Under the pieces are notes generated by a model. That model was not told where the DNA came from. It saw only the letters and a list, made by a program, of their open reading frames with translations, and did not search any database. Positions 5,369-63,449 of a stretch of DNA of 64,000 nt are shown here, piece after piece (the stretch's first letter is position 1; the number at the start of each line of letters is the position of its first letter). Source of the DNA: Gibbula magus (Eukaryota; Mollusca; Gastropoda; Trochida; Trochidae); the NCBI GenBank assembly GCA_936450465.1, contig OW388293.1:54463201-54527200 (forward strand). The letters are read 5' to 3'. The translations under genes and the position numbers were made by a program.

Positions 5369-6930
5369 AGCAGCTCCGAAACTTAGGGTCTCGCCTTTCC
5401 CTGTTCCGCCTTCTCGTCAGCATCAATAAAATGGCAATTCTTTTTAACAAAAGTTTGTTCATTATTCGAGTTATTACTAATCATCACTGGGGTCACTTTT
5501 CACAAGTTTGTTCTTAAAACCTATTTCTTCTTTCAAAATTTGATCAAAGGATACACGTGGCCTTAACCAATATCTCATGACCTTGACCTTTGACCTTCAA
5601 GGTCACACCATCAATGATCACTTTTCATCTCGTATAATAATCATGCAATGACTCAAAGTGTTCATAGTTAAAATACGGCATATTCACAAAAGCATGCTTA
5701 AGTTTTGACCTCACTGCGACCTTGACCTTTGACATATTTTAGCGAAAACGTTTTCAAATCTTGGTCTTTCTCAATAGTTCATATATACCAAATAAGAGCC
5801 TAATAGCACAAAAAAGTTTGAAGTTATCATGTTTACAAGGATTGTTGTAGTGATTTCAGAACTCATGACCTTGACCTTTGACCTTGAATGTAAACATGTC
5901 AAAATCTTTCACCAGGTGTATAAGAAAGAAATTAAGCTATCTATATGAGGTGTTAATATCTTCATGGAAAAAAAGTTACTTAGTGATTTCAGAACTGATC
6001 AGCATGACCATATCTCGTGACCTTGACCTTTAAAATTCAAGGTCACACAATCAGTGATCACTTTTCATTGTGTATCACAATCATGTAATGATTTAAAGTG
6101 TTAAATGTTGAAATAAGACATTTTCGCAAAAGCATGCTTAGGTTGTGACCTCGCTATGACCTTGACCTTTGACGGATGTTAGCGAATACCTTTTCAAATC
6201 TTGGCCTTTCTCCATAGTTGATATGTACCAAATAAGAGCCTGATAGCACAAACATTTTTCAAGTTATTGTGTTTACAAGGATTTTTTTTAGCAATTTCAG
6301 AACTCGTGACCTTGACCTTTGACCTTGAATATGAACATGTCAAAATGATTCCCTAGGAGCATAAGTAAGAAGTTATATATATGAGGTGTTGATACCTCCT
6401 TGGAAAGAAGTTATTTAGTGATTTCAGTACTGGTCAGCATGACCATATCTCGTGACCTTGACCTTTAAAATTCAAGGTCACACAATCAGTGATCACTTTT
6501 CATTGTGTATCACAATCATGTAATGATTTAAAGTGTTAATCGTTGAAATAAGACATTTTCGCAAAAGCATGCTTAGGTTGTGACCTCACTATGACCTTGA
6601 CCTTTGACGGATGTGAGCGAAAACCTTTTCAAATCTTGGCCTTTCTCCATAGTTGATATATACCAAAGAAGAGCCTGATAGCACAAATATTTTTCAAGTT
6701 ATCGTGTTTACAAGGATTTTTTTAGCGATTTCAGAACTCGTGACCTTGACCTTTGACCTTGAATGTGAACATGTCAAAAAAATTCCCCAGGGGTATAAGT
6801 AAGAAGTTATGTATATGAGTTCTCAAAACCTAATAGGAAAAAAGTTATAGCGAATACAAAACGCGGCGGCGGCGGCGGCGATGGAAACTGCACAAAAACT
6901 GATAGCAGCTCCGACTTAGTCGGAGCTGCT
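5369..6930. mobile_element. Helentron-like element with TGACCTTGACC tandem arrays (family H2)
   Basis: The left end AGCAGCTCCGA (5369) is matched by a 27-nt perfect palindrome at the right end (6904-6930, arms AGCAGCTCCGACT). The interior holds three repeats of about 430 bp (about 5560-5995, 6005-6430, 6440-6830). Each contains two or three blocks of TGACCTTGACCTTTGACCTT or close variants. A (GGC)n run lies near 6863. This type of element is common in bivalve genomes; the exact superfamily is not certain. Confidence 0.7.
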
Positions 6931-9278: not shown

Positions 9279-9369
9279 CATTCCGAACAGAGTTTCATTT
9301 GCAAATGTAGAATATTGCTCAATCGTAGACAAGACGCTGAATATAAGGCAGATGAGCACCATCATAAAG
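9279..9369 (-). CDS. KCNQ1-like: KCNQ channel exon 2, downstream copy (S1 segment, LFGM form)
   Basis: This is a second complete 91-nt copy of the S1 exon. The acceptor CTTTTTCAG ends at 9370 and the donor GTGAGT is at 9273-9278. It reads [15 protein letters not shown] then IEQYSTFANETLFGM. The S1 helix is identical to the upstream copy at protein level. Differences are confined to the outer end of S1 and the S1-S2 loop: Asp to Glu, TE to ST, and Trp to Gly next to the last Met. Many silent changes separate the copies, so both appear to be under protein-level constraint. The gap to the upstream copy is 41 nt. Joining both copies puts this one out of frame, with a TGA at 9319-9321. Mutually exclusive use is the likely reading; transcript evidence is not available here. 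Confidence 0.92.
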
Positions 9370-9410
9370 CTGAAAAAGGAACATGGTAGAGGAGTTTATT
9401 TAATACATAC

Positions 9411-9501
9411 CATCCAAAAAAGAGTTTCGTTGGCGAATTCTGTGTACTGATCTATGGTGGACAACACACTGAAGATGAGGCAGATAAGAACCATCATGAA
9501 G
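9411..9501 (-). CDS. KCNQ1-like: KCNQ channel exon 2, upstream copy (S1 segment, LFWM form)
   Basis: This 91-nt exon encodes transmembrane segment S1 and the start of the S1-S2 loop of the channel voltage sensor. The acceptor TTTCAG lies at 9502-9507 and the donor GTATGT at 9405-9410. After one base that completes the Val codon from exon 1, it reads [15 protein letters not shown], then [15 protein letters not shown]. Vertebrate KCNQ1 exon 2 is also 91 nt with the same phases (2 in, 0 out) and ends LFWM. The FSVLST block contains the positions equivalent to human S140 and V141, known gating-sensitive residues. It is the first of two tandem copies in transcription order and lies directly beside a minisatellite that repeats its acceptor. 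The NET tripeptide in the loop is an N-glycosylation sequon, but it lies close to the membrane. Confidence 0.95.
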
Positions 9502-9502
9502 C

Positions 9503-11735
9503 TGAAACATAAGTTATATCGTCAAGCAAAGTAAAAACTCTTGTAACTTTGTGTAGTAAGACAGCAAGGGTACCTGTGCTGATTAGAATATAGGGACATT
9601 ACGGAGCTGAAATTGAAGTTATATCGTCAAGCAAAGTCAAAACTCTTGTAACTTTGTGTAGTAAGACAGCAAGGGTACCTGTGCTGATTAGAGTGTAGGG
9701 ACATTACGGAGCTGAAACTGAAGTTATATCGTCAAGCAAAGTCAAAACTCTTGTAACTTTGTGGAGTAAGACAGCAAGGGTACCTGTACTGATTAGAATA
9801 TAGGGACATTACGGAGCTGAAATTGAAGTTATATCGTCAAGCAAAGTCAAAACTCTTGTAACTTTGTGTAGTAAGACAGCAAGGGTACCTGTGCTGATTA
9901 GAATATAGGGACATTACGGAGCTGAAATTGAAGTTATATCGTCAAGCAAAGTCAAAACTCTTGTAACTTTGTGTAGTAAGACAGCAAGGGTACCTGTGCT
10001 GATTAGAGTGTAGGGACATTACGGAGCTGAAACTGAAGTTATATCGTCAAGCAAAGTCAAAACTCTTGTAACTTTGTGGAGTAAGACAGCAAGGGTACCT
10101 GTACTGATTAGAATATAGGGACATTACGGAGCTGAAATTGAAGTTATATCGTCAAGCAAAGTCAAAACTCTTGTAACTTTGTGTAGTAAGACAGCAAGGG
10201 TACCTGTGCTGATTAGAATATAGGGACATTACGGAGCTGAAATTGAAGTTATATCGTCAAGCAAAGTCAAAACTCTTGTAACTTTGTGTAGTAAGACAGC
10301 AAGGGTACCTGTGCTGATTAGAATATAGGGACATTACGGAGCTGAAATTGAAGTTATATCGTCAAGCAAAGTCAAAACTCTTGTAACTTTGTGTAGTAAG
10401 ACAGCAAGGGTACCTGTACTGATTAGGATATAGGGACATTACGGAGCTGAAATTGAAGTTATATCGCCAAGCAAAGTCAAAACTCTTGTAACTTTGTGTA
10501 GTAAGACAGCAAGGGTACCTGTGCTGATTAGAATATAGGGACATTACGGAGCTGAAATTGAAGTTATATCGTCAAGCAAAGTCAAAACTCTTGTAACTTT
10601 GTGTAGTAAGACAGCAAGGGTACCTGTGCTGATTAGAGTGTAGGGACATTACGGAGCTGAAACTGAAGTTATATCGTCAAGCAAAGTCAAAACTCTTGTA
10701 ACTTTGTGGAGTAAGACAGCAAGGGTACCTGTGCTGATTAGAATATAGGGACATTACGGAGCTGAAATTGAAGTTATATCGTCAAGCAAAGTCAAAACTC
10801 TTGTAACTTTGTGTAGTAAGACAGCAAGGGTACCTGTGCTGATTAGAGTGTAGGGACATTACGGAGCTGAAACTGAAGTTATATCGTCAAGCAAAGTCAA
10901 AACTCTTGTAACTTTGTGGAGTAAGACAGCAAGGGTACCTGTGCTGATTAGAACCATCATGAAGCTGAAACATAAGTTATATCGTCAAGCAAAGTCAAAA
11001 CTCTTGTAACTTTGTGTAGTAAGACAGCAAGGGTACCTGTGCTGATTAGAGTATAGGGACAATACCGAGCTGAAATTGAAGTTATATCATCAAGCAAACT
11101 CAAAACTCTTGTAACTGTGTGTTGTAAAACAGCAAGGGTACCTGTGCTGATTAGAGTATTCATGCAGCTGAAACATAAACAAAGTCAACAATCTCAGGGC
11201 CTTCTTTCAAGGTAAAAATAATGTGTAGTCTGGGCTGTCCGTAGATAATCCCCAAGGGTACTTGTGCTGATTAGATATATGAATCAGTAGGAAGCTGAAA
11301 CATAAGTTATATTGTCAAGCAAACTCAACAATCTCAGGGCCTAACTTCTGTCAAGTTAATAATAATGTGTAGTCTGGACTGTGCGTAGACAATCCCCTAG
11401 GGTACTTGGCTGATAAGAGGCATAGGAATCATTAAGGAGCTGAAACACAAGGTATATGGTTAAGCAAACTCAATAATCTCTGAGTCCAGTATCAAGTTTA
11501 TAATGTGAAGTCTTGGCTGTGCATAGACAATCCCTGAGAGTAACTGTGCTGATTAGACGCTTGAATCATTAAGAAGCTGAAACATAAGTTATATTGTCAA
11601 GCAAAGTCAACAATCTAAGGGCCTTCTGTCAAATTGATTCTAATGTCTTGTCTTGATTCTCAAGTCTTGGCTGTGCGTAGACAATCCCCATGAGAATCAT
11701 GTAGGAATCATTAAGAAGCTGAAACATAAGTTTCC
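9503..11735. repeat. 105-bp minisatellite carrying repeated exon-2-type splice acceptors
   Basis: The array has roughly 14 near-identical 105-bp units (9503 to about 10970), then about six more diverged units of about 105-150 bp to 11735. Read on the minus strand (the KCNQ sense), each unit contains a pyrimidine-rich TTTCAG followed by a short segment and then CAG/GTACCC, which looks like a donor. The unit at about 10947-10975 reads TTTCAG then CTTCATGATGGTTCT, identical to the first 15 nt of the upstream exon 2 copy. The unit therefore probably arose by amplification of the intron/exon-2 boundary. Units differ by a few linked substitutions (GAGTG, AACTG, GTGGA), giving a partial three-unit higher-order pattern. 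Confidence 0.92.
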
Positions 11736-11833: not shown

Positions 11834-13127
11834 CGAGGGGCGTTCAATAAGTGTTGCAAGCGGGGCATTGGTGTTTACATAAACAGTGTCAGCTTATAGC
11901 AGGTGTTACTATAGTCAAAACATAACATTGACACATGTCAAAACAATTTCTAGACATAACAATTATTTAGATATAATAGCTGCGCTGACCTAGGGGTCTC
12001 CATAATCATGGATTCTCTCAAACATGAACAACGTGCTGTGATCAAGTTCCTTACTAAAGAGGGATGCAAAGCTACAGAAATACATAATCGTATGTGTAAT
12101 GTGATGGGTAAGGATGCTCCTAACTTTTCAACAGTTTGTCGCTGGTCTCTTCAGTTCAAGCGGGGCAGGGAGTCCTTAGACGATGACCCACGGTCAGGCA
12201 GGCCATCTGAAGTCACCCGACCGGAAGTTATTGCCGCTATCGAAAGACGAATTTTAGCTGACCGCCGTGTTAAAGTTTCTGAACTGTCTTTGGAATTCCA
12301 GATATCAGTTGGAAGTGTTGAAAAAATAATTCATGACCATCTTGGTATGTCCAAGGTATCTGCAAGATGGGTACCCAGAAACCTCACACACAAGATCGCC
12401 AGAAAAGAACCGAAAGTTGCATGGAGCTCCTGGATCGGTTTAATGCGGATGAAGAAGGTTTTTGTCTCGTCTGGTGACAGGTGACGAAACCTGGATCCAC
12501 CCCTGGGACCCGGAAACTAAACTGGAATCCAAGCAATGGAAGCACCCGAGTTCACTGCCTCCCCTGAAGTTTCGCACTCAACCATCAGCTGGCAAGGTTA
12601 TGGCGACAATCTTTCGGGATGCAAAAGGCATATTATTAATTGATTACTTGCCAACCAAAACTACAATGAATGGTCAATATTATGCCAACCTAATGCAAGA
12701 ATTGCGAAAGACAATTCGACAGAAACGCCGTGGAATGTTGACACGTGGTGTTCTGATTTTGCATGACAACGCTCCAGTCCACAAGTCAAGAGTTGCACAG
12801 GCCGCTATACGTGATTGTGGATTCGAACAGCTTAACCACCCACCCTACAGCCCAGACCTAGCCCCCAGTGACTACTTCCTGTTCAGAAACCTGAAATCCG
12901 CCCTACGTGGAAGGCACTTCCGGGATGACGAAGACGTCAAAGCTGCCACAGAGGCGTGGTTAGGGGGGCAAACGGAAGACTTCTACAAAAGCGGCATCAA
13001 AAGTCTTAAAGAGAAATGGAATAAGTGTATTGAGGTGAAGGGTAACTATATAGAAAAATAAAAGTAAAAAATTGACTACGCGAGTTGGTTTTATATTGAA
13101 GTTGCAACACTTATTGAACACCCCTCG
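11834..13127 (+). mobile_element. Mariner transposon, 1.29 kb, structurally complete
   Basis: The inverted ends begin CGAGGGGCGTTCAATAAGTG on the left and match CACTTATTGAACACCCCTCG on the right with one mismatch. TA lies on both sides (11832-11833 and 13128-13129), the mariner target duplication. The length is typical of the family. It carries a transposase frame at 12008-13061. The subfamily is not assigned. Confidence 0.95.
12008..13061 (+). pseudogene. Mariner transposase (DD34D), two frameshifts
   Basis: This is a DDE-type cut-and-paste transposase relic. The N-terminal helix-turn-helix region runs from the start to about 12240 and ends in the mariner motif DDDPRSGRP. The catalytic part contains GDETWIHPWDPETK, LHDNAPVHKSRVA and YSPDLAPSDYFLF. 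All three acidic residues are present, with 34 residues between the second and third. Reading starts in the frame of 12008 and must change near 12386-12390 (a CA-repeat), then again near 12458 (a T-run), to reach the frame that ends at 13061. A stretch ending in MELLDRFNADEEGF lies in the middle frame. Each change fits a one-base loss. The copy therefore cannot make full-length transposase as it stands, but decay is slight, so it is fairly young. Confidence 0.93.
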
Positions 13128-40984: not shown

Positions 40985-41640
40985 GTGGACGGTTTTATGA
41001 ATAATATATGCAAATGCAGGTCTGGACTACTTGTAGATGGTTTTATGGCTTTATTGGATAGGGTGGGGATCCCTTTGGATATATTACCAAACCATATCCG
41101 CAACTCCATTCTGGGCTACTTGTGGATGGTTTTATGGCTTTATTGGATAGGGTGGGGATCCCTTTGGATATATTACCAAACCATATCCGCAACTCCATTC
41201 TGGGCTACTTGTGGATGGTTTTATGGCTTTATTGGATAGGGTGGGGATCCCTTTGGATATATTACCAAACCATATCCGCAACTCCATTCTGGACTACTTG
41301 TGGATGGTTTTATGGCTTTATTGGATAGGGTGGGGATCCCTATGGATATATCACCAAACCATATCCGCAACTCCATTCTGGACTACTTGTGGATAGTTTT
41401 ATGGCTTTATTGGATAGGGTGGGGATCCCTTTGGATATATTACCAAACCATATCCGCAACTCCATTTTGGACTACTTGTGGATGGTTTTATGGCTTTATT
41501 GGATAGGGTGGGGATCCCTTTGGATATATTACCAAACCATATCCGCATATGGACTACCCGTGGATGGTTTATGGCTTTATTGGATAGGGTGGGGATCCCT
41601 ATGGCTATATTACCAAACCATATCCGCAACTCATTTTACA
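40985..41640. repeat. 89-bp satellite, about seven units
   Basis: Unit contains TGTGGATGGTTTTATGGCTT, GGGTGGGGATCCCTTTGGAT and CCAAACCATATCCGCAACTC. Units are more than 95% alike. 89 is not a multiple of three, so each unit opens a fortuitous frame beginning MDGFMALLDRVG. Confidence 0.96.
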
Positions 41641-49149: not shown

Positions 49150-49460
49150 TGGAGCACAGTGGTGTAGTGGTTAGCATGCTTGCCTCTCACGCCAACGGCC
49201 CGGGTTCGAATCCCGGTGGAGACACCAAACATTTGTGACCTGGGTCTTATACTGTGTTTTGCCCCTGGGCAAGGCACTTCATCCACATTGCACTCAGTCC
49301 ACCCAGCTGTTTAAATGGGTACCTGAACACGGGAGGTACGGACCTAGTAGCGGCACCGAAAGTAAAATTCCTTCAGGGTAATAATTGTACTGCCATTGAG
49401 CAGTGCTTGCACTGGATATTAGGCGTTAAAATGTATATCATTATTAATATTATCATAAAA
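49150..49460 (+). mobile_element. Full-length tRNA-derived SINE (family S3)
   Basis: The tRNA-like head carries an A box (TGGTGTAGTGGTTAGCATGC) and a B box (GGGTTCGAATCCCGG) at normal spacing, so internal pol III promoter elements are intact. The body contains CTGGGCAAGGCACTTCATCC and CACCCAGCTGTTTAAATGGG, a central block seen in several invertebrate SINEs. It ends in ATTATTAATATTATC. The head lacks a folded acceptor stem, so I do not call a functional tRNA gene. Confidence 0.88.
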
Positions 49461-57799: not shown

Positions 57800-58655
57800 A
57801 GAGCCATGGGCTCTGTAGCTCATCAGGGTTTATATTGTTTAATGATGAATAATGATATAGATTCTTACTATTTAGAATCTCCAATGGCTAAAGGTTCTTC
57901 ACACAATATTACAGCCTTCTAAATCTGCTTGTTCTGGAGAGGAAGACGAAAATAGGTTTTTAGGTCATGGCCTATGAGGCCCTTATTTGGGGTCAAAGGC
58001 TCACCATATCTACTATTTAGAATCTCCAATGGCTAAAGCTTATGCACATAATATTACAGACTTCTATGTCTTTTTGTTCTGGAGGAGAAGATGAAAATAG
58101 GATTTTAGGTCAAGGCCTGTGAGGCCCTTATTTGGGGCCACAGGGTCACCAAATCAACAATTTAGAATCTCCATTGGCTAAACGCTCTGCACACAATATT
58201 ATGGTCTTCTATGTCCTTTTGTTCTGGAGAAGAAGATGAAAATAGGATTTTAGATCATGGCCTCCGAGGCCCTTATTGGGCCACAGTGTCCACCAAGTCT
58301 ACAATTCAGAATCTCCATTGGCTAAAGAGTCTGTAATTTGAGCCTTCTAGGTCTTTTCGTTCTGGAGAAGGAGATGAAAATAGGACTTTAGATCATGGCC
58401 TATGAGGCCCCTATTTGGGGTCACAGGGTCCACCAAATCTACAATTTAGAATCTCCGTTGGCTAAAGAGTCTGTAATTTGAGCCTTCTAAGTATTTTCGT
58501 TCTCGAGAAGAAGACGAAAATAGGTTTTCAGTGGTTCTCGAGAAGAAGATGAAAAAGCAAAAAGTTTACAGACGGACAGGCGGATGGACGGATGTACGCC
58601 GGACACCATGCCATACCATAAGCCCATTTGGCCTTTCAGCCCTGATGAGCTAAAA
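57800..58655 (+). mobile_element. Helentron-like element, family H1, copy 3
   Basis: Starts AGAGCCATGGGCTCTGTAGC and ends GGCCTTTCAGCCCTGATGAG then CTAAAAA. The interior has about six diverged repeats of about 110-120 bp with AGAATCTCCATTGGCTAAAG, TTTTGTTCTGGAGAAGAAGA and GATGAAAATAGG, then an ACGGACAGGCGGATGGACGG run before the 3' hairpin. Confidence 0.7.
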
Positions 58656-63108: not shown

Positions 63109-63449
63109 ACAGTGAAGTGGTAGATGAAACACTTCCAGCCCGTCGGCCGCTCAAGGAAGTTGTAAATACGAGCTTGCACCGACGTCTTCCCGTGCACACG
63201 CGATGTATACATGGGCATGTAATGTTTATTCTCCGCAGCTTGGAGAGTTTGCTGAATGTTCTTGGAATCGGAGGTCATTGAAGCTGCAGGTGAAAATTCA
63301 GCTTCATAATGTTCCGGCAAAATACTCGGGAAGCCGTTGCCCGAAAATTTGCCTTTGTTCCTTTTCAGGAATCCACGAACATCTGGATTTGGGATCATCT
63401 TCTGGTTGGCCCCCTCGTCACGTGGTAAACTATCCATCTTCCGGGGCAT
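63109..63449 (-). CDS. KCNQ1-like: KCNQ-type voltage-gated potassium channel, coding exon 1 (N-terminus)
   Basis: This encodes the cytoplasmic N-terminus of a KCNQ (Kv7) potassium channel subunit, a tetrameric plasma-membrane channel. The frame from ATG at 63447-63449 gives 113 codons plus two bases. Residues 91-112 contain [16 protein letters not shown] followed by CFIYHF, nearly identical to the pre-S1 segment of vertebrate KCNQ1. The exon ends ACTGT at a GTGAGT donor (63103-63108); the split Val codon is completed by the first base of exon 2, as in vertebrate KCNQ1. An in-frame TGA lies two codons before the first ATG, so translation starts here or at Met5. Met5 has the better context (A at -3, G at +4). 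Residues 1-80 are poorly conserved and low in recognisable motifs. KCNQ1 identity rests on recalled family sequence; an invertebrate KCNQ of another subclass is possible. Confidence 0.93.

Follow-up and report, generated by a model that had tools for sequence, protein, structure and literature searches.

Adjacent copies of exon 2 in a molluscan KCNQ1-like channel gene: candidates for mutually exclusive splicing

KCNQ1-type channels set repolarization in the vertebrate heart, and the top of S1 and S2 is a region studied for gating and drug binding. At the present locus two similar 91 nt segments, each resembling this part of the channel, stand next to one another, which raises the question of whether they are alternative versions of one exon, included one at a time, or a working exon beside a copy that has lost its role. 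A preliminary description had proposed tandem, mutually exclusive KCNQ S1 exons; that proposal now has homology, phase, purifying selection, a short intron between the copies and a frame lock behind it, and the use of both copies in RNA is its prediction. We consider it probable that the two segments, termed exons 2A and 2B, arose when exon 2 of KCNQ1 was duplicated in tandem long ago and have been kept as functional mutually exclusive exons.

The gene and its two exon 2 copies

The minus strand of the window (the whole 64 kb stretch of DNA that was analysed) contains the 5' portion of a gene for a KCNQ1-like potassium channel. Exon 1, which has an in-frame TGA one codon ahead of its ATG, matched residues 1–116 of P0002 from Haliotis cracherodii with 72% identity in a tblastn search of the window (E 3.9e-49) and is separated from exon 2A by an intron 1 of approx. 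53.6 kb. P0002 carries both an Ion_trans and a KCNQ_channel domain, and KCNQ1 and its mollusc relatives are matched by exon 1 as well as by each copy of exon 2, showing that N-terminal and S1 sequence of KCNQ1 type is present. The protein sequence of vertebrate KCNQ1 (Kv7.1) is similar to that of the end of exon 1 together with exon 2, and solved KCNQ1 structures are matched by exon 2A; the vertebrate gene is not known to have more than one exon 2. No exon 3 or later exon was found in the 64 kb window by tblastn.

In a protein search (best 120 of 1442 relatives), the top match, in two stretches, was a protein from an ostracod, followed by Haliotis, and molluscs made up most of the top 25. Relatives in bacterial or archaeal genomes were not found, as expected for an animal gene. 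When the C-terminal part of P0002 was used as the query, proteins from gastropods, bivalves and octopus formed a set that ranked above a second molluscan KCNQ1-like set (best 120 of 4903 proteins among 7973 candidates scored), these sets being taken from the ranking. Exon 1 matched P0002 over its whole length and P0020, a member of the second set, only from residue 32 onward (44%), and for this reason the gene, a molluscan KCNQ1-like paralogue, is most likely the first of the two. The source animal is, on these similarities, most likely related to Haliotis and not identical with it. We also observed that residues 147–152 of P0002, directly after exon 2, comprise six extra residues (LAEYYL) absent from the aligned KCNQ1 structure, perhaps reflecting a shifted exon 3 acceptor or a model error.

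Table 1. Position, strand and character of the features recognized in the window
Feature	Positions	Strand	Details
Exon 1, coding part, KCNQ1-like gene	63109..63449	-	113 codons + GT, ends HFTV; donor GTGAGT
Mariner-like transposase	11960..13061	+	Mos1-type HTH and DDE domains
Four older, diverged units of the array	11168..11718	-	127–145 nt
Array of 16 units	9502..11167	-	14 of 105 nt, 2 of 98 nt; each ending TTTCAG
Truncated third exon head inside the array	10943..10964	-	20/22 bases as in exon 2A
Exon 2A	9411..9501	-	91 nt; donor GTATGT; tblastn and DNA profile
Intron between 2A and 2B	9370..9410	-	41 nt; pyrimidine-rich 3' end; no YTNAY branch motif
Exon 2B	9279..9369	-	91 nt; donor GTGAGT; tblastn and DNA profile
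Further tandem array	5570..6847		period 435
Further tandem array	41021..41632		period 89
Further tandem array	57866..58528		period 145
Weak tRNA match, the only Rfam match	49160..49216	+	31.7 bits, cut-off 29; far from the exon pair

The two intact 91 nt versions of exon 2 that had been described as lying side by side were recovered at exactly the positions first given for them, on the minus strand. Both matched human KCNQ1 (tblastn of the window, E 2.8e-8 and 1.4e-7) and were also matched by Haliotis P0002 (E 3.0e-12 and 1.2e-11). When the 64 kb were searched with a DNA profile built from 2A and 2B, these were returned with E values of 6.4e-27 and 1.9e-26 and the next match had an E value of 0.095; no third complete exon 2 was detected in the window by tblastn or by the profile search. 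A mechanical scan of the window for adjacent open segments of the form AG-91-GT with more than 50% amino acid identity gave a single minus-strand pair, namely 2A and 2B, and its plus-strand matches all lay within a triplet repeat near 51.5 kb.

The copies are equal in length and phase, have canonical splice sites and are identical at 26 of 30 residues. Their phases are the right ones, as had been claimed, since exon 1 ends ...ACT GT and each copy supplies a C followed by 30 codons closing ATG|GT. Exon 2 codes for the main part of S1, the S1–S2 loop and the first turn of S2, a segment that we take to be F130–M159 in the numbering of human KCNQ1.

Coding constraint and the predicted channels

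At the nucleotide level, exons 2A and 2B are distinguished by 24 of their 91 bases, and 20 of these fall at third positions (20 of 30 codons); 21 codons are changed, 17 of them silently, and four residues differ (D/E, T/S, E/T and W/G). Residues 1–16 are the same in both copies, in agreement with the earlier remark that the S1 helix is identical despite many silent differences. The NG86 method gave a dN value of 0.08 and a dS value that was not computable, i.e. saturated, and the introns ahead of the two copies have only TTTCAG in common. In neutral simulations starting from exon 2A and carried to 24 differences, with base composition and transition bias of our own choice, the mean number of amino acid changes was 15.3 and the minimum was 8, 55% of the outcomes contained a stop and four or fewer changes occurred in 0 of 20,000. 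As the combination of 24 nucleotide and four amino acid differences is not matched by the neutral simulation, both copies appear to have been coding for most of their time apart. Compared with the Haliotis exon, 2A differs at two of 30 residues and 2B at two others, which argues that both have been constrained for long and, the distances being equal, that decay at the protein level has been no faster in 2B than in 2A. These comparisons support strong purifying selection on both copies.

The four differences correspond to human positions 146, 149 and 150 in the loop and 158 at the top of S2. The two predicted channels would therefore have S1 in common and be set apart by the loop and the top of S2 (W158 to G). 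A difference in gating is expected to follow, most probably due to W158G; our literature search found no papers on KCNQ1 W158 and the voltage sensor. The preliminary description had also placed the variation in the region of contact with KCNE subunits, which are not known outside vertebrates; a literature search on this returned no papers. This point proved weaker than claimed, because 2A and 2B do not differ at any of the residues of this exon for which such roles are reported: F130, Q147 and Y148 as KCNE1 contacts in the apo structure of KCNQ1 (PMC12589563), and V141 and L142, which meet KCNE3, with Y148 also being critical for the binding of activators (PMC10501768).

Position 158 bears on a different reading, which is that 2B was formerly functional and has recently lost its role, so that only 2A is now spliced in. 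Exon 2A keeps the tryptophan found at this position in 255 of 286 relatives, the remainder having Y (25), I (2) or S, T, H or C (one each) and none having the G of 2B; this count was obtained with a loose pattern from 286 of 318 fetched proteins, which are redundant and of which 32 lacked the segment. With a stricter pattern, which located the segment in 210 of 318 proteins, W was counted 192 times, Y 15 times and I, S and H once each, and in the first molluscan set the position was visible in 23 of 28 sequences, as W in 19, Y in three and I in one. Since W predominates among the 286 relatives and G is absent from them, 2B could be impaired by the glycine at the W158 position. A recent loss of function of 2B is possible in terms of sequence divergence, with approx. 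five recent neutral substitutions fitting the data: in simulation, five neutral changes in 2B leave four or fewer amino acid differences and no stop with a probability of 0.7. Against this, the frame of 2B is open, its equal distance from the Haliotis exon is not that of a decaying copy, and both its acceptor and its donor score above those of 2A on primate splice-site frequencies, leading us to regard a recently silenced 2B as unlikely.

The 2B-type motif LFGM occurs in none of the 318 fetched proteins, a point against the functional reading even though 90% clustering of the database could hide such isoforms, and no clearly 2B-type protein was present among the relatives, seen as cluster representatives only. 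Automatic annotation of mollusc genomes may already list such isoforms, as several entries are named isoform X1 or X2; in the database, each 90% cluster is represented by a single member. Separately, the exon 2 segment of Physella acuta P0016, IEQYTEFAIGTLMYM, departs from that of other pulmonates and is a candidate second exon type, which we did not count, given that P0016 differs elsewhere too from Lymnaea P0009. The SSLYYM segment of ticks was not counted as a second type either, as it is present in five of five tick entries in which the segment was seen (P0160, P0166, P0199, P0200 and P0248), with no W-type tick copy observed.

Splice sites and the array upstream of exon 2A

Splice sites were scored with primate frequencies, and in a mollusc these scores give a rough ranking only. 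The good acceptors attributed to both copies held for 2B, which lies in the top 1.5% of minus-strand AGs in the window, and less so for 2A, which lies in the top 13%. A YTNAY motif is located 21 nt from exon 2A on its upstream side. No such motif is present in the 41 nt intron or in the last 30 nt of 2A, which, like the poor score of the 2A acceptor, counts against the functionality of the pair. On these signals the default copy could be either 2A or 2B.

Exon 2A is directly abutted by an array of 20 acceptor-like units (9502..11718, minus strand), within which TRF (9500..11159) found a period of 105, 15.9 copies and 95% matches, and the acceptor of exon 2A is itself the last copy of this array. 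Of the 60 bases that precede the splice site, the unit at 10964 has 59 in common with 2A, and of the first 24 that follow, 20; over both strands of the window, only three places carry at least 19 of the first 22 bases of the exon, these being 2A, the 10964 unit and 2B. The likeness of this unit to 2A shows that the array arose from, or became attached to, the native 3' splice site of the exon. We dropped the idea that the array consists of complete exons that have decayed, because beyond the first bases the match of the exon to the array was not above that of shuffles. The mariner-like transposase in intron 1 beside the array is split over two overlapping frames and thus broken.

Such an array invites the opposite reading of the pair, in which 2B is the standard exon and 2A a failing copy whose acceptor is drowned in repeats. 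Besides the origin of the 2A acceptor within the array, the scores are in keeping with this, in that 17 of the 20 units equal the 2A acceptor (three) or fall below it by 0.6–0.8 bit (14), two score higher (11167 and 11439) and one is lower by 4.1 bits. Yet 2A is the copy that keeps the conserved tryptophan of the family and it has the YTNAY motif upstream, and we hold its failure to be quite improbable. The array might instead act as a splice regulator, its approx. 20 decoy branch-site/acceptor units competing with 2A and its length setting the 2A:2B ratio and thereby gating; this suggestion we regard as decidedly doubtful.

Exclusive inclusion and its precedents

Mutually exclusive use of 2A and 2B would be enforced at two levels. 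As the intron between them, at 41 nt, falls below a 50 bp criterion, joining of the 2A donor to the 2B acceptor is inferred to be impossible, presumably through a steric block. In a human survey, a distance from donor to branch point of less than 50 bp was taken as potential steric interference, with 57 such cases (9%) (PMC5740500). The present pair resembles that class of spacing-enforced exclusive exons in having an intron under this limit and an exon length not divisible by three, and differs from it in showing no YTNAY branch motif ahead of 2B and in that the 41 nt are judged by a criterion set for human introns. At the second level, a message with both copies or with the intron retained would run into a stop. 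The exon length of 91 is 1 mod 3, so the frame is held with a single copy and lost with two copies or with neither; joining exon 1, 2A and 2B brings a TGA within 2B, and 2A followed by the retained intron and 2B meets a TAA after four codons. A docking/selector system found no support, as 96 of 100 shuffles folded at least as well as RNA structure across the pair.

The same stops allow for a reading in which the alternatives are not strictly exclusive: messages with both copies or with neither would be produced in useful quantity and broken down, which would set the amount of channel. Exon 1 read into any of the 20 array units also meets a stop, after 7–70 codons unless a further splice intervenes. 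The frame stops are, however, a passive property of a 91 nt exon, and regulation of this kind seems to us highly improbable. That the pair is an assembly artefact or represents collapsed haplotypes is extremely improbable. Regions like the adjoining array are presumably difficult to assemble, but two copies with 74% identity and saturated third positions have diverged far beyond what alleles would show.

Mutually exclusive inclusion of 2A and 2B, our preferred reading, has parallels in other channels. Tandem duplicated exons are enriched in voltage-gated channels, with Slo, para, NALCN and calcium channels named as examples (PMC9741552). As described there, those of Slo, para and CACNA1C/D are, as here, adjacent homologous exons that are candidates for exclusive inclusion, whereas the present exon spans S1 to the start of S2 and is known from genomic sequence alone. 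The term 'KCNQ' does not occur in the main text of that paper (0 occurrences), nor in the main text of PMC5740500. The earlier statement that no duplication of a KCNQ exon 2 had been described agrees with our search of the open-access literature (titles and abstract starts only), in which no case of KCNQ with mutually exclusive or duplicated exons, in molluscs or Drosophila, was described. Exclusive exons in tandem are an established phenomenon among ion channels.

Should the pair be used as predicted, it would add the KCNQ family to the channels with an independently arisen tandem exon duplication. An exon swap limited to the top of S1 and S2 would provide a ready-made natural experiment on residues 146, 149, 150 and 158, and, if the decoy reading of the array were true, the length of the array, which may vary among individuals, would tune gating.
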